Below are positions 36,017 to 63,873 of a DNA stretch of 64,000 nucleotides, piece after piece. Each line of letters begins with the position of its first letter. Positions within the stretch are counted from its first letter, which is position 1. A model generated the notes under the pieces. The model was not told the DNA's origin. It made no database searches and saw only the letters and a list, made by a program, of their open reading frames with translations. The DNA is taken from contig NZ_JBBCAT010000001.1 of NCBI RefSeq assembly GCF_037203705.1, positions 2,267,418-2,331,417 on the forward strand, read 5' to 3'. The translations under genes and the position numbers were made by a program. The DNA comes from Prosthecomicrobium sp. N25 (GTDB lineage: Bacteria > Pseudomonadota > Alphaproteobacteria > Rhizobiales > Ancalomicrobiaceae).

Positions 36017-36410
36017 GGGTCGTACCTCTCCACACGGAATCGCGTCGGGGAGAGGCCCGGCGGGCCGGGGAGGGGAGAGGTCGGCGACACCGTCGGCGCG
36101 CGGCGGGAGGGCCCGCGCGCGGAAGGAGCCATGTCGACCCGTCCGTCGAACCGGATACCTGTCGGGCCACTCCACAATGGATCCAGTCCGACATCGCAGC
36201 GCCGACGTCGTCGGTGCGCTGCCAGAGGGGCCCGGCCTGGTGACCTTCAGATAGCGGAACGTCGGCCCGGCATCAAGGGTTCCTGACAGGATCGTCAGGC
36301 GATTGTCAGCGCCGTGACATGATTGACACGGCGGTAACCTTGCCAAGCGGTTGCGCATGACAGCGAGGGGCCGACGCCGCATCCTGCCGGCTCGCCGCCG
36401 AGGATCCCCG
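36017..36410. promoter_or_regulatory. 394-base divergent intergenic region with two dyads and a -35-like box
   Basis: No gene is seen here. Two inverted repeats lie close together: CCTGAC-N6-GTCAGG (36282-36299) and GCCGTG-N10-CACGGC (36311-36332). A perfect TTGACA (36323-36328) is inside the second dyad and faces the acyltransferase gene at 36411, though no good -10 follows 16-18 bases on. This suggests an operator over a promoter. The part nearer TerC is GC-rich without a recognised riboswitch. Confidence 0.4.
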
Positions 36411-42291: not shown

Positions 42292-42636
42292 TCAAGCGCA
42301 AGCCGGCAGCACGAAGGCCGCGAGCGCGTTCCAGGCGACCGCCAGGAGCGCCAGGAGCGCGGCGCCGCGGGTGACGCGGACGACGAAGCGCCCCGTCTCC
42401 GGGTCGGTCGTCCCGCGTCCGCCGGCGCCCGCGAAGGCCGCGATGGAGAGAAGCGCCGCGGCGGCGGCCAGGGTCGCGCCGGCCACGATCGCCTGGACCG
42501 CGGAGAAACCGCCCACGGGCGGGCCGCCGCCGTGGAACGTGCAGAGGATCGTGTTCGCGGCGTAGATCGCCCCGAAGTGCAAGCCCCAGACGATCAGGCC
42601 GCCGAGGAGCAGGGTCGCGCGTCCGAGGAAGCCCAT
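42292..42636 (-). CDS. Small three-helix membrane protein at the end of the oxidase operon
   Basis: 114 aa with predicted helices at about 6-28, 44-68 and 88-110, and two Cys (ILCTFHGGG and the last residues PACA). GAGGGGACGG precedes the ATG, 10 bases after the subunit I/III stop, so it is the last gene of the operon. I do not recognise the family. By position it could be a small oxidase subunit (a subunit IV equivalent) or an assembly factor. Confidence 0.7.
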   Translation of the reverse strand: MGFLGRATLLLGGLIVWGLHFGAIYAANTILCTFHGGGPPVGGFSAVQAIVAGATLAAAAALLSIAAFAGAGGRGTTDPETGRFVVRVTRGAALLALLAVAWNALAAFVLPACA

Positions 42637-42646
42637 CGCCGTCCCC

Positions 42647-45226
42647 TCAGGCCAGGAGCCGGGCCACGCCGTGCACCAGCGCGAGCCCGGCGAGCCCCTG
42701 CGCGGTCGCGGTGTGCCAGAGCAGCATCGTGCAGTCGTAGGTCGCGCGCCGGCTCCGGTCGAGCCGCGACGACAATCCCCGGGCCGCGACGAAGCCCGCC
42801 ATGAGCGCCAGCACGGCGGCCAGGAAACCCTGCAGGGTGGAGATCGTATAGACGGCGGCCCCGTAGCTCGACGCGTCGGGCCTCAGCCCGCTCTGCCAGT
42901 GCCCGGCGACCTCCGCCGCCACGCCGAGCGCCGGCCAGGGCGCGGCGGCAAGCATCAGCGCCGCCGCTCCGCCGGCCCGCAGGCGGGGCCGGGCCGGCAG
43001 CAGGCGCCCGGCCAGGACCACGATCGCGCTTCCCGCCAAGAAGGCGCCGGCGGAGAGGACGGGCCAGAGCGGGTCTGCCCGCGTCGTCCCGGGCGGGGGC
43101 CAGCGGCCCGGATTGGCCGTCCAGAGATAGAGGTAGGTGGCGACCACGCAGGCGAAGATCATGCCCGAGACCACCATGAGCACCATCATGGCCCACCATG
43201 CGTGGCTGACCGGTCCGGTCGCCTGCACGGGGATGCGGATGCCGCCCCCGATGTCGACCGGCGGATGGTAGGGGCCCGGGTCGCAGTCCCACATCCAGAC
43301 CATCACCGACACGATCGCCAGGACCCCGCACGCGAAGGCCGGCACGGTGAGCTGCACGGTCAGGCCGAGGAAGAAGGCGGCCGTGAAGACGGCGGCCAGG
43401 AAGGACGCCCAGCTCGGCCCCGGCAGGGCCAGGATGTACTGCGGGCGTGCCTCGACCGGGCTGGTGACGATCGTCTCGCGCCGGCCCGTGGCCGACCCGG
43501 GCAGGTAGTGGTGGCCGGCCTCGACCTCGCGGGCGAGGGACGGGCGGTCCCACACGGGCTCGCGGCTCGCCACGTGGGGGATAGAGCGCGTCTGGTAGTC
43601 CTCCGAGGGCAGCCACTCGAGCGTCCCGGCACCCCAGACGTTGCCGGCCCGGCGCCCGCCGAAGGGTCGGAAGTTCAGCACCGCGTCGAGGAGGAAGACG
43701 GCGACGCCGGCCGCGATCAGGAAGGCACCTCCCGTGGAGATGAGGTTCAGCGTCCCCCAGCCGACCTCCGGAATGTAGGTGTAGACCCGCCGTGGCATGC
43801 CGGCGAGGCCCGTCAGGTGCATGGTGAAGAAGGTGACGTTCACCCCGACGAACATCAGCCAGAATGACGTCTTCCCGAGCGTCTCCGACAGGGGCCGCGA
43901 GGAGACGACCGGCGCCCAGTAGTAGAAGGCGGCGAAGAGCGGAAAGACCATGCCGCCGATCAGGACGTAGTGGAGATGCGCGACGATGAAGTAGGTGTCG
44001 TGGACCTGCCAATCGTAGGGCATCATCGCCACCATCACGCCCGTCAGGCCGCCGATGACGAAGATGAACAGGAAGCCGAGCAGGAAGAGGGTCGGCGTCG
44101 AGTGCCCGAGGCGGCCGGCCGCGATGGTGGCGATCCAGGCGAAGATCTGGACCCCGGTCGGCACCGCCACCGCCATGCTGGCCGCCGAGAAGAATCCGAG
44201 CGAGAGGGTCGGCAGCCCGGTCGCGAACATGTGGTGCGCCCAGAGCCCGAAGGAGAGGAAGCCGGTGCCGAGAAGCGCGAGCACCACGAGCCGGTAGCCG
44301 ACCAGCGGCACGCCCGCCAGGGCCGACACCATCATGGAGACCATCCCGGCCGCCGGCAGGAAGATGACGTAGACCTCCGGGTGCCCGAAGAACCAGAAGA
44401 GGTGCTGCCACAGGATCGGGTCGCCGCCCTTGGCCGCGATGAAGAAGGGCCAGCCGAAGGCGCGCTCCAGCTCGAGCAGCAGCGTGGCGACGATCACGGC
44501 CGGGAACGCCACGACGATCATCATGGCGAAGACCAGCATGGACCAGGCGTAGATGGGCAGCTTGTCGAGGGACTGTCCCGGCGCCCGGGTCTTCAGCACC
44601 CCGACGATGATCTCGACCGCCCCGGCGATCGCCGAGATCTCGATGAAGCCGATGCCGAGGAGCCAGAAGTCCGCGTTGACCCCGGGCGAGTAGTCCTTCG
44701 AGGTCAGCGGCGGGTACATGAACCAGCCGCCGTCCGGCGCCAGCCCGAAGAAGAGGCTGGCAAAGAAGGCGAGCCCGCCGATCGCGTAGGCCCAGAATGC
44801 GTAGGCCGACAGGCGCGGGAAGGGCAGGTCGCGCGCCGCCTGCATGTTGGGTAGGAGCAGGACCCCGAACGCCTCCACCACCGGCACGGCGAACAGGAAC
44901 ATCATGACCGTTCCGTGCATGGTGAAGAGCTGGTTGTAGGTCGACGCGCCGACGACGTCGAGGCCCGGCTGGGCGAGCTGGACCCGCATCACCAGTGCGA
45001 CCACGCCTGCGAGCACGAAGAAGAGCAGCGCCGTGCCGATGTAGAGGAGGCCGACGAAGGTGTTGTTCACCGCCGAGAAGGCCCGCCAGCCCCGCGGCCG
45101 TGCCCAGACCCGCGCGAGGGCCTCCACTTCGCCGGCCGGCCGCGGCCCCGGGTTCGGAAGCGGCATGGCCCGCTCCCGCAGGCCCGGCTCGGCGCGGACC
45201 GGGATGCCGAGGCGCGCGTCGGTCAT
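42647..45226 (-). CDS. Cytochrome c oxidase subunit I fused to subunit III (caa3 type)
   Basis: 859 aa. Residues about 40-560 are subunit I with about 12 helices. The heme a, heme a3 and CuB ligands are seen in TMHGTVMMFLF (His), FFGHPEVYVIFLPAAG (His-Tyr crosslink and the proton-channel Glu of A1-type enzymes), WAHHMFATG (two His) and HDTYFIVAHLHYV. Residues about 620-859 are a shortened subunit III-like part with about six helices. It reduces O2 to water and pumps protons. ATG 45226 overlaps the subunit II stop (ATGA), giving translational coupling. Confidence 0.92.
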   Translation of the reverse strand: MTDARLGIPVRAEPGLRERAMPLPNPGPRPAGEVEALARVWARPRGWRAFSAVNNTFVGLLYIGTALLFFVLAGVVALVMRVQLAQPGLDVVGASTYNQLFTMHGTVMMFLFAVPVVEAFGVLLLPNMQAARDLPFPRLSAYAFWAYAIGGLAFFASLFFGLAPDGGWFMYPPLTSKDYSPGVNADFWLLGIGFIEISAIAGAVEIIVGVLKTRAPGQSLDKLPIYAWSMLVFAMMIVVAFPAVIVATLLLELERAFGWPFFIAAKGGDPILWQHLFWFFGHPEVYVIFLPAAGMVSMMVSALAGVPLVGYRLVVLALLGTGFLSFGLWAHHMFATGLPTLSLGFFSAASMAVAVPTGVQIFAWIATIAAGRLGHSTPTLFLLGFLFIFVIGGLTGVMVAMMPYDWQVHDTYFIVAHLHYVLIGGMVFPLFAAFYYWAPVVSSRPLSETLGKTSFWLMFVGVNVTFFTMHLTGLAGMPRRVYTYIPEVGWGTLNLISTGGAFLIAAGVAVFLLDAVLNFRPFGGRRAGNVWGAGTLEWLPSEDYQTRSIPHVASREPVWDRPSLAREVEAGHHYLPGSATGRRETIVTSPVEARPQYILALPGPSWASFLAAVFTAAFFLGLTVQLTVPAFACGVLAIVSVMVWMWDCDPGPYHPPVDIGGGIRIPVQATGPVSHAWWAMMVLMVVSGMIFACVVATYLYLWTANPGRWPPPGTTRADPLWPVLSAGAFLAGSAIVVLAGRLLPARPRLRAGGAAALMLAAAPWPALGVAAEVAGHWQSGLRPDASSYGAAVYTISTLQGFLAAVLALMAGFVAARGLSSRLDRSRRATYDCTMLLWHTATAQGLAGLALVHGVARLLA

Positions 45227-46245
45227 TTCAGGCTCTCCAGGTAGGCGGCGAGGTCCCGCAGCTGCCGCCCCTCCAGCCGGTCGTAGGACGGCATCCGGTT
45301 GCCCGGCTTCAGGTGCTGCGCCGAGGCGACCCAGCCGGCGAGCGTGCCCGGATTGCGCGGGAAGGTCCCGGCCGCGATCGTCGTGCGGCTGCCGAGCCGG
45401 GTGAGATCCGGCCCGACCGTCCCCGCCGCCTCGGTGCCCCGGACCGTGTGGCAGGCCCCGCATCCCTGCACCTGGAACAGCGCCGCCCCGCGCCGCTCCG
45501 CCTCGGTGACGGGCGCGGCGGCGTCCCCCGCGGACCGGGCCCACCAGGCCTCGAACGCCGCCGGCTCCAGCGCCACCACCGTGAAAGCCATCAGCGCATG
45601 CTGGCCGCCGCAGTACTCCGCGCACTGGCCGCGGTAAATCCCCGGCCGGGACGCCGCGATGCGGAAGCGGTTGGTGCGGCCCGGGATCATGTCGAGCTTG
45701 CCGGCCAGGCTCGGCACCCAGAAGGAATGGATGACGTCCGCGGTGTTCAGCACCACCTCGACCGTCGCCCCCGCAGGCACGTGGATCTCGTTCGCGTCGG
45801 CGAGCCGGACCGCGCCCTTGGAGTCCAGGTAGGCGACCCGCCACCACCATTGCTCCCCGGTCACCTCGACCCGCAGCGCCGGCGCTCCCGTGACGACAAG
45901 GTCGCGCGCGAGCGACAGCCCGTGCCAGAGGAGAGCGGAAAGGACGACCACCGGGAAGGCGATGCCGAGCCCGAGCACGAACCATTCATTCCCCGGCGCC
46001 CGCTCGTCCGAGCGGATCAGGATCGCCCCGATGGTCAGGATCGCCACCAGCGCGAAGATGCCCACTGCTCCGGTGGTCATCAGCCAGTGCAGGTCCGCGA
46101 CCGCCCGCGCCTCCGGTCCGGCCGGGTCCAGGGCCGATTGCGCGCCCTTGCAGCCCGGCAAGGCCAGCAACACCGCCCCGGCCGCCGCGGCCCGGGCGCC
46201 CCGTTGGGAGAGAAGCCGTGCCTGCGCCCGCGCCGCGCCCCTCAC
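45223..46245 (-). CDS. Cytochrome c oxidase subunit II with C-terminal cytochrome c domain
   Basis: 340 aa from GTG 46245 (GTGA overlap with the gene before). The N-terminus has a lipobox-like LLALPGC, so it is probably a lipoprotein. Two transmembrane helices follow, then the cupredoxin domain with a complete CuA site (GQCAEYCGGQHALM), then a fused cytochrome c with CGACH and a Met ligand in RMPSYD. This architecture defines caa3 oxidases, in which soluble cytochrome c or a membrane donor passes electrons to the fused heme c, then CuA. Located in the inner membrane facing the periplasm. Confidence 0.93.
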   Translation of the reverse strand: MRGAARAQARLLSQRGARAAAAGAVLLALPGCKGAQSALDPAGPEARAVADLHWLMTTGAVGIFALVAILTIGAILIRSDERAPGNEWFVLGLGIAFPVVVLSALLWHGLSLARDLVVTGAPALRVEVTGEQWWWRVAYLDSKGAVRLADANEIHVPAGATVEVVLNTADVIHSFWVPSLAGKLDMIPGRTNRFRIAASRPGIYRGQCAEYCGGQHALMAFTVVALEPAAFEAWWARSAGDAAAPVTEAERRGAALFQVQGCGACHTVRGTEAAGTVGPDLTRLGSRTTIAAGTFPRNPGTLAGWVASAQHLKPGNRMPSYDRLEGRQLRDLAAYLESLK

Positions 46246-46619
46246 TTCAGGGTACCCAGGAAGGCGGCCACGTCCCGCGCCTCCTCGCCGCTGAGACCGA
46301 TCCGCGGCATGCCCGTGGCCGGCACCAGCGCGGGCGGATCCTCGACGAAGCGTGCGACCGTCTCGGGCCGGTTCGGCAACTGGCCCGCCAGGAGCGGCCG
46401 CGCCGCGAAGCCGTCGAGCGGCGGCCCGACGATGCCCCTGGCGCCCGCCACGCCCGGGATCCGGTGGCAGACCCCGCAGGCGACCCGTTCGACGACGGCG
46501 CGCCCGCGTCCCGCGTCCCCGAAACCGCCGGCAGGCTGCGCCGCCGCTGGCGGGCTCGCCAGGGCGAAACCGCCGAGGATCAGGATGGCCGCGCCGCGCC
46601 GCGTCGGGTGTCGGGCCAC
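46242..46619 (-). CDS. Small periplasmic monoheme cytochrome c
   Basis: 125 aa from GTG 46619. A signal peptide (AAILILGGFALASPPAAAQ) precedes a single class I cytochrome c domain with CGVCH and the likely axial Met in TGMPRIGLS. Its stop overlaps the subunit II start, so it is translated together with the oxidase. Likely role: electron shuttle between the dehydrogenase/diheme cytochromes and the caa3 oxidase. Confidence 0.85.
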   Translation of the reverse strand: MARHPTRRGAAILILGGFALASPPAAAQPAGGFGDAGRGRAVVERVACGVCHRIPGVAGARGIVGPPLDGFAARPLLAGQLPNRPETVARFVEDPPALVPATGMPRIGLSGEEARDVAAFLGTLK

Positions 46620-46624
46620 GGCGG

Positions 46625-47491
46625 TCAGTTCCCGGACGCGGGGCCGGCGGCCGGTTGGGGCGGACGGTCGCCACGCAGGCCGGACGCGCCGCCCCCGGGC
46701 AGGAGCGGCGGCTTTTCCCCGGACGACCCCGTCGCCCCCGTCGGGCCCCGTGCCGCCTCCGAGGCGACGGGGGCGGCCCCCACCCCGGCGGGGGCGGGCG
46801 CAATGGCGGCATAGTAGGCCGCCACGGCCCGGATCTGATCCTCCGAGAGAGCCGTGGAGACCTGCTTCATCACGTCGAGCGCGTCGCCGCTGCGCCGCCC
46901 CTCCTTCCAGGCGCGCAACTGCGCGGCGAGGTAGGCGGCCGGCTGGCCGGCGAGGGCGGGCGAGACCGGCGCCATGCCGATCCCGTTCGGGCCGTGGCAG
47001 CCCGCGCAGGCCGCCACCCCGCGTGTCGGGTCCCCGGCCGCCGCGAGCGCGCCGCCTGTCTGCAGGAGATCGGCCGGCGCGGCCGCCGCCGCCGGATGCC
47101 CCGCGCCCGTGGCAGGGGCGACCGCCGCGTACCAGGCCGCCACGGAGGCTCGTTCCGTCTCGCCGAGCGCCCGCGCGACCGGGGTCATCACGTCGTTCCG
47201 GCGCAGCCCGGAGGCGTAGTCGCCGAGGGTCTTGTAGAGGTACCAGCCGCTCTGCCCGCCGATGCGCGGGACGCCGCCCGACGCGTCCGCCGCGCCGTCC
47301 ATTCCGTGGCACTGCACGCAGGCCGGCTGCCCCTGGTCCATGCCGGACCCGAGGGCGACCATCTGCCCGCGGGCGATCGCCGGGTCTCCGGATTGGCCCG
47401 CCACCGGAGCCGCGGCGGCAGCCAGGGCGGCGGCCGCGAGCCCGACCGTCAAGCTGCTGCGCATGGTCGATCGCCTCGTCATGGTGCCCAT
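46625..47491 (-). CDS. Diheme c4-type cytochrome c, copy 2
   Basis: About 288 aa; the start may be ATG 47503 (ATGA overlap), 47491 or 47482. A signal peptide (SSLTVGLAAAALAAAAAPVAGQ) leads into two cytochrome c domains, with CVQCH and CAGCH. Each has a downstream Met (DVMTPVARAL and DVMKQVSTAL). A Pro/Gly-rich tail of about 50 residues ends the protein. It is clearly related to the diheme protein at 50403-51212, sharing YLYK.L.DYASG and HGP.G.G.AP patterns, so it arose by duplication. It probably takes electrons from the GMC dehydrogenase. Confidence 0.88.
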   Translation of the reverse strand: MGTMTRRSTMRSSLTVGLAAAALAAAAAPVAGQSGDPAIARGQMVALGSGMDQGQPACVQCHGMDGAADASGGVPRIGGQSGWYLYKTLGDYASGLRRNDVMTPVARALGETERASVAAWYAAVAPATGAGHPAAAAAPADLLQTGGALAAAGDPTRGVAACAGCHGPNGIGMAPVSPALAGQPAAYLAAQLRAWKEGRRSGDALDVMKQVSTALSEDQIRAVAAYYAAIAPAPAGVGAAPVASEAARGPTGATGSSGEKPPLLPGGGASGLRGDRPPQPAAGPASGN

Positions 47492-47499
47492 GCAGCCTC

Positions 47500-49269
47500 T
47501 CATGCCTGCACCAGCGGTCGCGGGTTCTTCAGGTAGTCCCCGGTGATCGCCTGGAGTGCCCAGTAGGTGAGCGATCCGACGGTGCCGGTCGGGTTGTAGC
47601 CGGCGTTCTGCGGGAAGGCGGAGGCGCCCATGATCCAGAGATTGTGCAGGTCCCAGCTCTGCAGGTAGCGGTTCACCACGCTGGTCCGCGGGTCGGTTCC
47701 CATGATCGCGCCGCCGCTGTTGTGGGTCGTCTGGTAGGGCGCGATGGAATAGTGGTCGGCGAGCCAGGAGACCGAGATGGACCGACCTCCCATGGCCTGC
47801 CCGATCTCGCGCATCTTCCCCGTGAGGTGCCGCGCCATTAGCCGGTCGTTGTAGGGGAAGTCGAAGGTCATCATGCCCAGCGGCTGGCCGTAGGCGTCCG
47901 TATAGGTCCGGTCGAGGCCGAGATGGTTGCCAGGGTGCGGCGTCGAGGAGCCGTGCAGGGACAGGGTCACGGTCGAGTTGTAGTGGCGCGCCACCGCCTC
48001 CTTCCAGGCCCGGCCCCAGCGCGGGGTCCCGTCCGGGACCGGGTGGTGGTTGATCGGTCGGCCGGAGGTCTGGTTGGCCGCGATGTAGCCGCCGCCGACG
48101 AAGCCGAGTCCGGAATGGTCGAAGCTGCCGTTGTTCCAGTCGTCGATGACCGTGCCGAGCGCCCCGGCCCCCATGTAGGGGTTGATGCGCTGCGTCCCGT
48201 CGTAGAAGACGCTGACCGCCGTCATGGTCTGGTAGCTGTAGTTGCGCCCGACCGTGCCCTTCCGCGTTGCCGGGTCGTAGGGCTCGCCGATGCCGGACTG
48301 GAGCAGCAGGATGGGGTTGTGGTGCGCGAAGGCGCAGAGCACGACCATGCCGGCTGGCTGGAAGACCTCGCGCCCCTGGGCGTCCACATAGGTGACGCCG
48401 GTCGCGATCCGGGCGTCCTTGTCGTGCTCGATGCGGATGACGTGGCTGCGCGGCCGGATCGAGAAGTTCGAATTCTTCATCGCCGCCGGCAGAATGGCGA
48501 TCTGGGGGCTCGCCTTGGCGAAATGCTCGCAGCCGTAGGTCTCGCAGTAGCCGCAATACATGCAGGGCTGCATCTCCGCCCCGTACGGGTTGGTGTAGGC
48601 CCTCGTCTGGTTCGCGGAGGGCATCGGGAACGGGTGGTAGCCGAGGCCGGAGGCGGCGTCGGCGAAGAGCTTGCCGGACAGCGGCTGCTTCATCGGCGGG
48701 TTGGGATAGTCGTTCTGCCGCGGCCCCTCGAAGGGATTGCCGCCCGCCCGCGTCTCGCCCCGGAGGTTCCCGGCGAACCCGCCGATCCCGCAGACCTTCT
48801 CAAAGAAGTCGTAGTGCGGCTCGAGCTCCTCGTAGCTGACGCCCCAATCCTGGATCGTCACGTCGTCCCCGACATGGTCCTTGCCGTAGCGTTCCTCGGT
48901 CCAGGACTTCAGGCGGAACCACTCGGGCTGGAAGCGCCAGGTCTGCCCGTTCCAGTGCACCATCGCGCCGCCGACGCCGTCGGCCGGCAGAAAGGAGCCG
49001 AGCTGGCGCATCGGCAGCGCCTCCTGGCCGACGAAGTTGCGGAAGCTGAGCGTCTGGGTCGCCGCGTTCTGCATCAGAGCGTAGCGGATCGAGTATTTGA
49101 GTTCGTCGTGCATGGACGGCGACTGGAAGTCCGGGACGGTGTCCCGCATCGGTCCGCGCTCGAGCGCCACCACGGTCTTGCCGGCTTCCGCGAGGTGCTT
49201 GCCGACGATGGCCGCCGTCATGCCCCCGCCGACCAGCACCACGTCCACCTCCTTCATCCTGATCGGCAT
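47500..49269 (-). CDS. GMC-family FAD dehydrogenase, gluconate-2-dehydrogenase flavoprotein type
   Basis: 589 aa. The N-terminal FAD motif is VVLVGGGMTAAIVGKHLA. A cysteine cluster C236-x2-C239-x2-C242-x4-C247 (CMYCGYCETYGC) is of the kind that binds an Fe-S cluster in related glucose, fructose and gluconate dehydrogenases. The C-terminal GMC signature has THNSGGAIMGT (catalytic His) and NAGYNPTGTVGSL. No signal peptide is seen, as is usual, because it would be exported with the Tat-bearing small subunit. It oxidises a sugar, polyol or alcohol in the periplasm; the substrate is unknown. Confidence 0.88.
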   Translation of the reverse strand: MPIRMKEVDVVLVGGGMTAAIVGKHLAEAGKTVVALERGPMRDTVPDFQSPSMHDELKYSIRYALMQNAATQTLSFRNFVGQEALPMRQLGSFLPADGVGGAMVHWNGQTWRFQPEWFRLKSWTEERYGKDHVGDDVTIQDWGVSYEELEPHYDFFEKVCGIGGFAGNLRGETRAGGNPFEGPRQNDYPNPPMKQPLSGKLFADAASGLGYHPFPMPSANQTRAYTNPYGAEMQPCMYCGYCETYGCEHFAKASPQIAILPAAMKNSNFSIRPRSHVIRIEHDKDARIATGVTYVDAQGREVFQPAGMVVLCAFAHHNPILLLQSGIGEPYDPATRKGTVGRNYSYQTMTAVSVFYDGTQRINPYMGAGALGTVIDDWNNGSFDHSGLGFVGGGYIAANQTSGRPINHHPVPDGTPRWGRAWKEAVARHYNSTVTLSLHGSSTPHPGNHLGLDRTYTDAYGQPLGMMTFDFPYNDRLMARHLTGKMREIGQAMGGRSISVSWLADHYSIAPYQTTHNSGGAIMGTDPRTSVVNRYLQSWDLHNLWIMGASAFPQNAGYNPTGTVGSLTYWALQAITGDYLKNPRPLVQA

Positions 49270-49280
49270 GCCGCTCTCCT

Positions 49281-50045
49281 TCAGGGTCGCCCGGCGCCGG
49301 TCGGGGCGGGCATGTGGGACGCGTGCGCCTTGAGGTGCGCCTCGCGCGCCGCCGTGTTGCCGATGCCGATCGGCTCGCGCCGGTACTCGTGGCCGTGGAC
49401 GTCGACGAGGTCGACGAACTGCGCGTAGGCGCCGGGGAAGCCCACCATCCGCCAGCCCGCCATGCCGCGGTTCCCGCCATAGGCCGGATCGGCGAAGAAG
49501 CCCTCGATCGTGTTGGCGAGCAGCGTCTCGAAGAAGACCGCCGAAGGAAGGGAGGGCAGGGCGATTCCGCCGGTCTCCAGCTTGCCGAGGACCTCGTCCA
49601 TGACGGGTTCGCCGAGGTCCCAGAACTCCTTGCCCCCGTAGGCCTGCCGGCAGTGCTCGCCGATCTCTCCGATCGCGATCCGGTAGAGCTCGGCGGGCGT
49701 GAAGCGGAGCTGGTAGCCCTGCTCGGGCGCCGCCTCCGGCTTCCAGGGTCCCTTGAGATACATGCGGTCGCCGGCGCCCCAGGCGCTCGCCAGCTGCCGG
49801 TCGATGAAGAAGAGAACCCCCGCGTCCGCCGCGCCCGGCCAGCGCGGATCCTTCGGGATCAGCCGTTCGGCCGCCGCCTCGACGAAACGCGCCTCGGGGT
49901 CCGTGAAGAAGAAGAGGACCCGGTCGCCGTCGGCAGGCTCGGCCACCGGAGGCTGCGTCTGCGCCGCCGCGGGGCCCGCTGCCGCCGCCGCACCGGCCGC
50001 ACCGGCCACCTTGAAGAGGTCGCGTCTCGACAGGGTCTCGCTCAC
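49281..50045 (-). CDS. Gluconate-2-dehydrogenase subunit 3-family protein, Tat signal
   Basis: 254 aa from GTG 50045 (GGAG upstream). The twin-arginine signal LSRRDLFKVAGAAGAAAAAG is at residues 5-25. The mature part matches the small subunit of membrane-bound GMC dehydrogenases (FVEAAAERLIPKDPRWPGAADAGVLFFIDRQL). This subunit acts as a Tat hitchhiker chaperone and keeps the flavoprotein in the complex. It is 11 bases upstream of the GMC gene, the standard order. Confidence 0.88.
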   Translation of the reverse strand: MSETLSRRDLFKVAGAAGAAAAAGPAAAQTQPPVAEPADGDRVLFFFTDPEARFVEAAAERLIPKDPRWPGAADAGVLFFIDRQLASAWGAGDRMYLKGPWKPEAAPEQGYQLRFTPAELYRIAIGEIGEHCRQAYGGKEFWDLGEPVMDEVLGKLETGGIALPSLPSAVFFETLLANTIEGFFADPAYGGNRGMAGWRMVGFPGAYAQFVDLVDVHGHEYRREPIGIGNTAAREAHLKAHASHMPAPTGAGRP

Positions 50046-50076
50046 GATGCCACTCCGAAACAGAGAAGAAATTCGT

Positions 50077-50406
50077 CTACTTGCCCGTCACCTTGGCGAG
50101 GCAGTCGGCCTCCGCCGGCGTGCCCGCCAGCCCCTTGCAGAGATCGGCGCCGGGAAGCGGCGGGAGATCGGTCAGTCCCAGCTTGGCGCTCGCGGGCTTC
50201 GGCCCGCTGTTGCCGAGCGTGGTCCCGGCGCTCGTGTTGGCCCCGACATGGACGGCGCCGCCCCGGCTGATCCCGCCGGCGCCCGGCTGCTGCGAGAGCT
50301 GGTCGGCGGATTGGTTGCCCTGCGCGACGGCCGCGCCCGCCCCGCCGAGGACGAGCCCGGAAAGGACGATGAGGATCGCGGGGAAAGTCGGCCGGGTGCC
50401 GGTCAT
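50077..50406 (-). CDS. Small exported hypothetical protein in the oxidase operon
   Basis: 109 aa. A signal peptide (FPAILIVLSGLVLGGAGAAVAQ) is followed by a Gly/Ser/Ala-rich region and a conserved-looking end with two Cys (ADLCKGLAGTPAEADCLAKV) that could form a disulfide. It contains no heme motif. It overlaps the diheme gene before it by ATGA (50403-50406), so it is translationally coupled. I do not recognise it; by position it may be an accessory subunit of the dehydrogenase. Confidence 0.75.
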   Translation of the reverse strand: MTGTRPTFPAILIVLSGLVLGGAGAAVAQGNQSADQLSQQPGAGGISRGGAVHVGANTSAGTTLGNSGPKPASAKLGLTDLPPLPGADLCKGLAGTPAEADCLAKVTGK

Positions 50407-51212
50407 GGACGGTCTCCTTGCCGTTGGCCCGCCGGCGCGCCGCTGGCAGCGGTTCGGTTGCCGGCCGCCTCCGGAACCACGGCCGTGATCGCCGCCACCC
50501 CGGAGACGGAGCGCGGGGCGGGTGGCAGGCTCGCGAAGTAGCGGGCGGCCGCGGACACGTCGCGGTCGTCCATGCGCCGGGCTATGCCGGCCATCACGCC
50601 GGCCGGATCGCCGCCGCGCCGGCCGGCCTTCCAGGCCTGGAGCTGGCCGCGCAGGTATCCCTCGTGCTGGCCCGCGAGGGCGGGAACGAGCGGCGCCAGG
50701 CCGGCCCCGTCCGGCCCGTGGCAGTTCTGGCAGGCCTGGACCCCGTGCTCGGCGGCACCGATGGAGGACAGCACCGCTCCCCGCTGGACGAGGCCATAGT
50801 CCTCCGGGCCACCGGCCGGGCGCGCGGCCGCCCCGGTCGGCCCCGGCCCCGTCGGGTCCTGGGTCGCGTAGTGGACCGCGACGTCCCGCCGCTGCTGCTC
50901 GGTCAGCGCCTTGGCGATCGGCGTCATGATCTCGTTGGGCCGAACGCCGGAGGCGTAGTCGGCGAGCGCCTTGTAGAGGTAGGTCGCCATCTGGCCGTCG
51001 AGCCGCGGGAAGCCGGCTGCGGGATCGCCCCGGCCCTCCAGCCCGTGGCAGGCCAGGCAGGCCTGACGCTGCCCGCCCGGCCCGGCCCCGACCACAACGC
51101 CCCGTCCGCGGCCGGGGTCCGCGGGCGCCGTCCCGGATTGGGCACCGGCGACGCCCGTGGCGACCGCGAGCAGCAGGCCGGCGACCGTCACGCGCGGAGG
51201 GCGATAGGGCAT
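50403..51212 (-). CDS. Diheme c4-type cytochrome c, copy 1, first gene of the operon
   Basis: 269 aa. A signal peptide (VTVAGLLLAVATGVAGAQ) precedes two cytochrome c domains with CLACH and CQNCH, each followed by a possible Met ligand (EIMTPIAKAL and GVMAGIARRM). It matches the diheme protein at 46625-47491 over most of its length. It is the promoter-proximal gene; the operon promoter must lie in 51213-51371, a region shared with the divergent AI-2E transporter. Confidence 0.88.
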   Translation of the reverse strand: MPYRPPRVTVAGLLLAVATGVAGAQSGTAPADPGRGRGVVVGAGPGGQRQACLACHGLEGRGDPAAGFPRLDGQMATYLYKALADYASGVRPNEIMTPIAKALTEQQRRDVAVHYATQDPTGPGPTGAAARPAGGPEDYGLVQRGAVLSSIGAAEHGVQACQNCHGPDGAGLAPLVPALAGQHEGYLRGQLQAWKAGRRGGDPAGVMAGIARRMDDRDVSAAARYFASLPPAPRSVSGVAAITAVVPEAAGNRTAASGAPAGQRQGDRP

Positions 51213-51371
51213 GGGTCGGCACTCCCGCTCGCGGTCCGGAGCCTTGTGCCGACCTCGTGCCGGCACCTTCGTCCTGCCGCCGAACGAGGACCCGCCCGGG
51301 TTGTTCCGTCTCCCGGGCCGTGACCAGGAACAAGCGCGCCGGCCGGCCGTTCCTCCGCTGCACGCCGGCTT

Positions 51372-51386: not shown

Positions 51387-52505
51387 CCCGCATCCGAACC
51401 GCTTCCCGGGCCGGCCGCCGTTCCCGCACCGCCCCCCGCCGCCCACCCCCGCGACGAGATCGCCTTCGTCCGCAAGGCCCTGATCGTGCTCGGCGTCTTC
51501 GCCCTGGCGCTCGCCGCCTGGCAGGTGCGCGAGAGCCTCCTCCTCGCCTTCGCGGCCGTGGTAGTCGGTGTCGTCTTCGATGCCGCTGCGGTCCCGATCT
51601 GCCGGCACACGCGCCTGCGTCGCCGCTATGCCCTGATCGCGGCGGTCCTTCTCGTCATCGGCATGGTCGCGCTCCTCGCCGTCCTGGTCGGTGCCCAGGT
51701 GAAGAACCAGCTCGGCGAGTTCGGCCAGCGGCTGCCCGACGTGGTGCGCTACCTGGAGACCCAGCTCGGCATCTCCCTGCCGGCCCTCAACGGCAGCGGC
51801 GGTTCCCTGCAGGACCAGCAGGGCGGCGCGGTCGCGGACCTCTCCAAGACGCTGATGGGGCAGATCACGACGCTCGGCACCATGGTCTTCGCGAGCGTCA
51901 CGAACCTCGTCCTGGTGATCGTCGGGGGCGTTTTCCTCGCCGTCGACCCCAGGATCTACAAGGCGGGGCTGGTCAAGCTCTTCCCGCCGGAGCGCCACGA
52001 GCGCATCGAGGACGCCCTCGACACATGCGGCCGCGCCCTGAAGCTCTGGCTTCTGGCGCAGGTCATCGCCATGGGGGTGGTCGGCACCCTGGCGGGCCTC
52101 GGCACCTGGTTCCTCGGCCTGCCGGCGCCCGTCGCCCTCGGCATCTTCGCGGGGCTGGCCGAGTTCATCCCGGTCGTCGGTCCGATCGCCGGCGCGGTCC
52201 CGGCGGTGCTCCTCGCGCTCACCATCGACATGTCGACCGCGCTGTGGACGCTCGGCCTCTTCGTCGTCATCCAGCAGCTCGAATCGAACGTCATCACCCC
52301 GATCGTCCAACTCCGGCTCGTCTCGATCCCGCCCGCGCTGCTTCTCTTCGCCGTCATCGCCTTCGGGACCCTCTTCGGTCCGATCGGCATCCTGGTCGCC
52401 GCCCCGATGACCGTAGTCGCCTTCGTGCTCGTGCAGAAGCTCTATGTCCGCGAGACCTTGGGCGAACCGGTGAAGATCCCGGGTGAGCAGAAGGCAGGGG
52501 GCTGA
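51384..52505 (+). CDS. AI-2E family transporter (PF01594, YhhQ/PerM/TqsA-like)
   Basis: 373 aa if started at ATA 51384, or 339 aa from GTG 51486. The GTG start would cut off the polar segment and first residues of helix 1 (DEIAFVRKALIVLGVF), which look like a natural family N-terminus. About eight helices surround a central loop. Family motifs: GIFAGLAEFIPVVGPIAGAVPA and QQLESNVITPIVQ, with GPIGILVAAPMT. The family exports autoinducer-2 or exchanges Na+/H+ in different members; the function here is not known. It is divergent from the cytochrome operon. Confidence 0.85.
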   Translation: MPASEPLPGPAAVPAPPPAAHPRDEIAFVRKALIVLGVFALALAAWQVRESLLLAFAAVVVGVVFDAAAVPICRHTRLRRRYALIAAVLLVIGMVALLAVLVGAQVKNQLGEFGQRLPDVVRYLETQLGISLPALNGSGGSLQDQQGGAVADLSKTLMGQITTLGTMVFASVTNLVLVIVGGVFLAVDPRIYKAGLVKLFPPERHERIEDALDTCGRALKLWLLAQVIAMGVVGTLAGLGTWFLGLPAPVALGIFAGLAEFIPVVGPIAGAVPAVLLALTIDMSTALWTLGLFVVIQQLESNVITPIVQLRLVSIPPALLLFAVIAFGTLFGPIGILVAAPMTVVAFVLVQKLYVRETLGEPVKIPGEQKAGG

Positions 52506-63758: not shown

Positions 63759-63873
63759 GGGGCGCGTCCTCCGTGGTGTCGGCCCGTGAACGTCCCGCCT
63801 CCCTCGCGGTTCCGCAACGAACCTTTCCGGCCCCCTCATGCGTTGTTCCTGTCGAGCGGTCGGGAGGGCGGAC

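Follow-up and report, generated by a model that had tools for sequence, protein, structure and literature searches.

The window, by which we mean the whole stretch of DNA that was analysed (64,000 nucleotides), contains nine minus-strand genes that run from position 51212 to 42292 and are packed as one tight operon. Pfam and PDB matches confirmed the annotated families, and the genes lie where a preliminary description of this DNA had placed them. The operon opens with a secreted diheme cytochrome c of the cytochrome c4 family (50403-51212), which carries two CxxCH motifs and matches Cytochrom_C and the PDB cytochrome c4 entry 6q2u (E 1.1e-22). It is followed by a small secreted protein of 109 residues with two cysteines close to its C-terminus (50077-50406), a Gluconate_2-dh3 subunit (subunit 3) bearing a Tat signal (49281-50045; PF13618, E 3.6e-28, plus a TAT_signal match), and a GMC flavoprotein, the catalytic subunit (47500-49269; PF00732/PF05199). 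Downstream lie a second diheme cytochrome c of the c4 family (46625-47503; two CxxCH; 6q2u, E 2.5e-24), a monoheme cytochrome c with a GTG start (46242-46619; Cytochrom_C, E 2.5e-6), a CoxB-cytochrome c fusion, or subunit IIc (45223-46245; COX2 plus Cytochrom_C), an 859-residue CoxA-CoxC fusion, CoxAC (42647-45226; COX1, E 4e-138), and a 114-residue membrane protein whose sequence shows about three hydrophobic stretches (42292-42636). No family match was found for the 109- and 114-residue proteins in Pfam or in further searches. Counting CxxCH motifs gives the six c-type hemes that had been proposed, two in each diheme protein and one each in the monoheme cytochrome and CoxB.

Neighboring genes overlap by four bases at 50403-50406, 46242-46245 and 45223-45226, as previously described, and also at 47500-47503 between the GMC and second diheme genes, an overlap that had been missed. 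The remaining intergenic gaps measure 5 to 31 nt. A search within and around the block for sigma-70-like promoters and terminators found neither, and so none of the separate promoters that had been named as evidence against a single unit.

Dehydrogenase, cytochromes and oxidase

The closest PDB relative of the GMC subunit is the large subunit of fructose dehydrogenase (E about 2e-33), and among the three-subunit FAD dehydrogenases its PDB matches are 8xcm, 7w2j and 6a2u. Four cysteines, C236, C239, C242 and C247, together with the catalytic-type residues H516 and N559, are invariant in 61/61 relatives. The cysteine pattern CxxCxxCx4C is likewise present in all 61, but its spacing is unlike that of fructose dehydrogenase. 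These four invariant cysteines suggest an Fe-S center. The GMC protein begins with MPIRMKEVDVVLVGGG and has no signal peptide; the Tat-bearing subunit 3, which is the sole PF13618 match in the host genome, is the likely carrier that exports it as a hitchhiker partner. The 109-residue protein occurs in Microvirga and Aquabacter, and its orthologues conserve VGAxT, SGP and PPLPxxxLC motifs. An AlphaFold prediction of the GMC protein made from eight close sequences was of low confidence (mean pLDDT 34.6). In the gene neighborhoods read as a guide to the substrate, no recurring sugar transport or catabolic genes were found, only stress-type genes.

GMC relatives at 43 to 57% identity mostly sit in an order of subunit 3, GMC and triheme cytochrome, some with a monoheme cytochrome, which confirmed over about 50 loci the contrast drawn in the preliminary description. 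When gene positions are compared across these loci, diheme cytochrome c 2 occupies the place that the triheme cytochrome holds in the wider family. In each diheme protein the cytochrome c4 matches span both class I c-heme domains. No membrane-bound triheme cytochrome c subunit is encoded in the operon, and the best match genome-wide is 38% identical and interrupted by an internal stop (G000:C4:151307-152161, L126). Because this subunit is absent, the nine-gene block is, on its gene content, outside the three-subunit class of fructose dehydrogenase (FDH) and gluconate dehydrogenase (GADH).

On the oxidase side, the best PDB match of CoxB is subunit II of the Thermus thermophilus caa3 oxidase (2yev_B, E 4.5e-50), with an alignment that extends across the c domain, and both the CuA motif CAEYCG and the heme motif CGACH are present. 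In CoxAC, the heme a, a3 and CuB ligand motifs MHGT, GHPEVY, HHM and HLHY are all conserved. The assignment of this protein as a CoxA-CoxC fusion holds for its COX1 half and for the full-length alignment to the T. thermophilus I+III chain (2yev_A, over residues 38-842). The CoxC half aligns solely within that full-length match and is also conserved in relatives; searched alone, it found no match in Pfam or in a separate PDB search.

At the position of the canonical aa3 K-channel lysine, CoxAC has Gln360, while the ordinary aa3 oxidase of the same genome (L001) has lysine. Glutamine occupies this position in all CoxA-CoxC fusions compared, whether GMC-linked or not (L039-L056, L132, L133, L138, L140). 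The D-channel aspartate is kept in the host CoxAC, and GHPEVY is kept in all fusions compared; the Tranquillimonas oxidase lacks even the glutamate. By these motifs the host oxidase resembles the caa3 type but lacks one canonical feature, and since the lysine is replaced, proton pumping is not to be assumed. The 114-residue protein had been counted among the two small unknown subunits of the chain. Its homologues, which conserve W, F, Y and two cysteines, follow CoxAC in both linked and stand-alone oxidase operons, so it is better described as belonging with this oxidase type in general than with the dehydrogenase in particular. The host genome encodes seven COX1-type proteins, and a second CoxA-CoxC fusion with its own CoxB-cytochrome c lies at G000:C1:1887242-1889062 (L056) with no GMC gene nearby.

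EcfG-type sequences upstream of the operon

An exact match to a sigma-EcfG-type promoter sequence, GGAAC-N16-CGTT, lies on the minus strand at 51283-51307, 71 nt 5' of the ATG of the first gene. The reported sigma EcfG sequence, GGAAC-N17-20-GTT (PMC6599016), fits this arrangement. A second exact match on the plus strand (51327-51351) is divergent and faces an AI-2E family gene (51486-52505, PF01594). In total, five EcfG-type matches were observed in the window as compared to 0.66 expected, and none of 100 shuffles reached five. Two further EcfG-type sequences, at 36258-36283 and 63789-63813 (both minus strand), precede the genes for a TerC-like and for a small membrane protein. Also present in the window are PhoX, phospholipase D-like, LPG_synthase_TM and Exo_endo_phos genes; the TerC and phospholipase names were assigned by eye.

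Across genomes, the motif lies within 150 nt of the start of 11/17 oxidase-linked operons; among the other gene starts of these loci, which were called with a crude gene finder, it does so at 8/311 (binomial P about 3e-14). The Microvirga loci do not represent independent observations; with the set reduced to eight lineages, four are positive (P about 3e-5). The strict motif is absent at 6/17 linked loci. It is present at 5/28 other alphaproteobacterial GMC operons and at 0/29 loci outside the Alphaproteobacteria. Four matches to NepR, an anti-sigma marker of the general stress response, were found in the host genome, and superoxide dismutase, Dps and PRC-barrel genes lie near the block in relatives. 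EcfG, the general stress response sigma factor, probably activates the operon. An EcfG consensus also lies just 5' of the CtaG-like gene in the stand-alone caa3-type operons L039, L042 and L140, with a near match in Sinorhizobium pSymB (L138), and the CoxA-CoxC oxidase type may itself be stress-regulated.

Recurrence and history of the pairing

The full block order was found at nine Microvirga loci and in Bauldia, with the short 114-residue and small-protein genes going undetected at some loci. A monoheme cytochrome c orthologue is present in every full block. Shorter versions occur in the alphaproteobacterium G015, where subunit 3, GMC, diheme, monoheme, coxB and coxAC genes are accompanied by a CtaG-like gene, and in Dinoroseobacter shibae (plasmid pDSHI02), where subunit 3, GMC, diheme, monoheme, coxB and a ctaD fusion are followed by genes for a 109-residue membrane protein and CtaG. 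Conservation of the block, which the preliminary description had proposed checking, was thus seen in several genomes, and since it is recurrent the arrangement is, on comparative grounds, not due to chance. The earlier statement that the gene set has no described equivalent does not survive as a claim of uniqueness, as pDSHI02 and the ten Microvirga and Bauldia loci hold it or nearly so. A full-text literature search found no description of the gene set; because it was limited to open-licence papers, this is weak evidence. Likewise, the portions of the D. shibae literature searched contained no functional report on the annotated pDSHI02 cluster.

In the sampled genomes, the GMC family was found in 14/289 alphaproteobacterial and 35/398 phylum genomes. 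Of the loci from this sample that were examined, those of the host genome and G015 alone carry an oxidase inside the GMC operon, so the oxidase-linked form is rare as far as the sample reaches. In Tranquillimonas, a GMC 71% identical to that of the host neighbors a different oxidase, one in which subunit III is not fused; the GMC frame of Tranquillimonas alkanivorans (L019, 9001-10754) is broken near its C-terminal end into two overlapping frames, which may be real or a sequencing error. Aquabacter has the CoxB-cytochrome c gene in its GMC operon, while its CoxAC orthologue (66% identical) is encoded on another contig, accompanied by the genes for CtaG and the small membrane protein, and no CoxB was found near it there. 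On Sulfitobacter plasmids, the dehydrogenase half and the oxidase half lie apart, with two transporter-type genes between them.

Under maximum likelihood, the GMC proteins with a linked oxidase form exactly one clade (support 100/99). This clade carries cytochrome c4-type dihemes. The CoxA proteins adjoining the linked GMCs do not form one clade. A single origin of the linked oxidases was rejected (AU p 4.5e-67; the constraint lowers the log-likelihood by 420 units). At least four oxidase changes are required by well-supported branches of the CoxA tree. Two cautions apply: the group was defined by linkage, but a quick preliminary tree had already been inspected when the test was made, and the Tranquillimonas sequence sits on a long branch; even so, G015 and D. 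shibae alone are already separate from the host and Microvirga group. As the linked oxidases are polyphyletic, the pairing has outlasted several exchanges of the oxidase. The Aquabacter arrangement, with CoxB in the GMC operon and CoxAC elsewhere, indicates that what remains beside the dehydrogenase is the electron-receiving subunit, and we infer that its retention reflects selection for electron transfer.

Proposed electron route, alternatives and known systems

We propose that the nine genes encode a single EcfG-controlled respiratory branch in which electrons pass from the GMC dehydrogenase through c4-type cytochromes and cytochrome c to the caa3-type oxidase and oxygen, bypassing quinone, and we assign this reading a probability of roughly 0.68. 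In this model, EcfG would turn the operon on in the general stress response. The GMC flavoprotein would be exported in folded form as a partner of the Tat-bearing subunit 3; in the periplasm it would oxidize a sugar- or alcohol-type substrate. Electrons would then move from FAD to the probable Fe-S cluster at C236, C239, C242 and C247, on to the cytochrome c4-type dihemes and from there to the monoheme cytochrome c. This cytochrome would deliver them to the heme c of CoxB, and CuA, heme a and the a3/CuB site of CoxAC would follow, where oxygen is reduced. Both quinone and the bc1 complex would be bypassed. The genes and their families, the cofactor motifs, the recurrent pairing and the promoter sequence are seen directly in the sequences; from these we infer the order of electron transfer, EcfG control in the cell and the quinone bypass.

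The preliminary description had suggested a dedicated substrate-to-oxygen chain. Strong comparative support exists for this idea, in that the linked GMCs are one clade, an oxidase is kept despite changes of lineage, and CoxB stays when CoxA moves. Against a dedicated oxidase, close orthologues are found in CtaG-triheme-CoxB-CoxAC operons without any GMC, so the oxidase can take electrons from elsewhere, and the divided halves in Sulfitobacter also count against a single branch. A more far-reaching version is offered tentatively, and we would sooner doubt it than accept it in full. In it, a stress-controlled dehydrogenase would be coupled directly to a caa3 oxidase of its own with an altered K channel, the two probably forming a c4-bridged complex; this branch would operate without quinone, bc1 or NADH, and its oxidase would have been exchanged several times in evolution.

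The two halves might instead share regulation only, with a stress-induced GMC and oxidase placed in one operon and the electrons entering a general cytochrome c pool that serves bc1 or other oxidases. The seven COX1-type proteins of the genome would provide such a pool with outlets, and the frequent EcfG motif upstream of stand-alone oxidases of the same type means that co-regulation alone could favor clustering. A monoheme cytochrome of Rhizobium radiobacter also reportedly accepts electrons from glucoside 3-dehydrogenase (PMC9915066). However, the GMC clade retained an oxidase across several oxidase exchanges, Aquabacter keeps with its GMC exactly CoxB, the electron-entry subunit, and the diheme and monoheme genes lie, with translational overlaps, between dehydrogenase and oxidase; we regard shared regulation alone as unlikely. 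Electron delivery to quinone, as in the gluconate and fructose dehydrogenases, with the oxidase genes as chance neighbors, would agree with the relationship of the catalytic subunit to fructose dehydrogenase. This route is nevertheless rated very low because the triheme quinone-reducing subunit is missing from the operon, its homologue in the genome being distant and broken, and the linkage is moreover conserved through the oxidase exchanges.

A further alternative concerns not the route but its purpose, namely that the chain burns a periplasmic substrate under stress to remove oxygen rather than to conserve energy, with an oxidase that pumps few or no protons. The glutamine in every fusion compared would suit such an enzyme, and the EcfG motif, along with the superoxide dismutase, Dps and PRC-barrel genes nearby in relatives, suggests stress protection. 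Against this, the host oxidase retains the D-channel aspartate and the GHPEVY glutamate, and oxygen reduction takes protons from the inside even without pumping, so that some energy would be conserved. Oxygen removal as the function thus appears improbable, if less remote than the delivery of electrons to quinone.

If the proposed branch is real, stressed alphaproteobacteria would use a short, private substrate-to-oxygen chain independent of NADH, quinone and bc1, which would make it a concrete candidate for how respiration continues in stressed or starving cells. The CoxA-CoxC fusions would additionally be a natural collection of oxidases that lack the K-channel lysine, in which proton uptake could be studied, and D. 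shibae, a model organism with the shorter block on one of its plasmids, allows direct testing.

By family assignment the parts are all of known kinds, and the combination is that of a dehydrogenase plus a dedicated oxidase. Fructose dehydrogenase, the FAD glucose dehydrogenase of Burkholderia (FAD-GDH) and gluconate 2-dehydrogenase are alike in having a GMC subunit, a Tat-bearing small subunit and a cysteine cluster likely to hold an Fe-S center; here, by contrast, separate c4-type dihemes and a monoheme cytochrome replace the triheme subunit, and an oxidase lies in the operon. The Caulobacter lactose 3-dehydrogenase LacABC (PMC9007349) resembles the present system as a periplasmic dehydrogenase with companion subunits and a cytochrome c, and the glucoside 3-dehydrogenase with its monoheme cytochrome c is likewise periplasmic and has companions (PMC9915066). 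Unlike here, the accessible parts of these two reports, compared by description only, mention no oxidase genes alongside. The T. thermophilus caa3 oxidase (2yev) shares, by full-length alignment, the fused subunit I/III, and also the attachment of a cytochrome c domain to subunit II, whereas the host enzyme has glutamine in place of the canonical K-channel lysine, an unrelated-looking 114-residue companion and a dehydrogenase in its operon.

Among oxidase operons, the stand-alone CtaG-triheme-CoxB-CoxAC units of Sinorhizobium pSymB, of Peteryoungia and of Aquibium plasmids have oxidase orthologues about 62% identical to that of the host, and CoxAC is followed, in those where it is annotated, by a small membrane protein. 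They differ in lacking a dehydrogenase, in having a triheme cytochrome and, often, in carrying a Na/Ca antiporter gene inside the operon. The pDSHI02 block of D. shibae has the host gene order, with a GMC 55% and a CoxAC 50% identical to those of the host and an EcfG motif upstream. It lacks the first diheme and small-protein genes and, unlike the host operon, is followed directly 3' by a flavin monoamine oxidase family gene and a cytochrome c (L133, 16789-18842), an arrangement that looks like a second dehydrogenase attached to the same oxidase.
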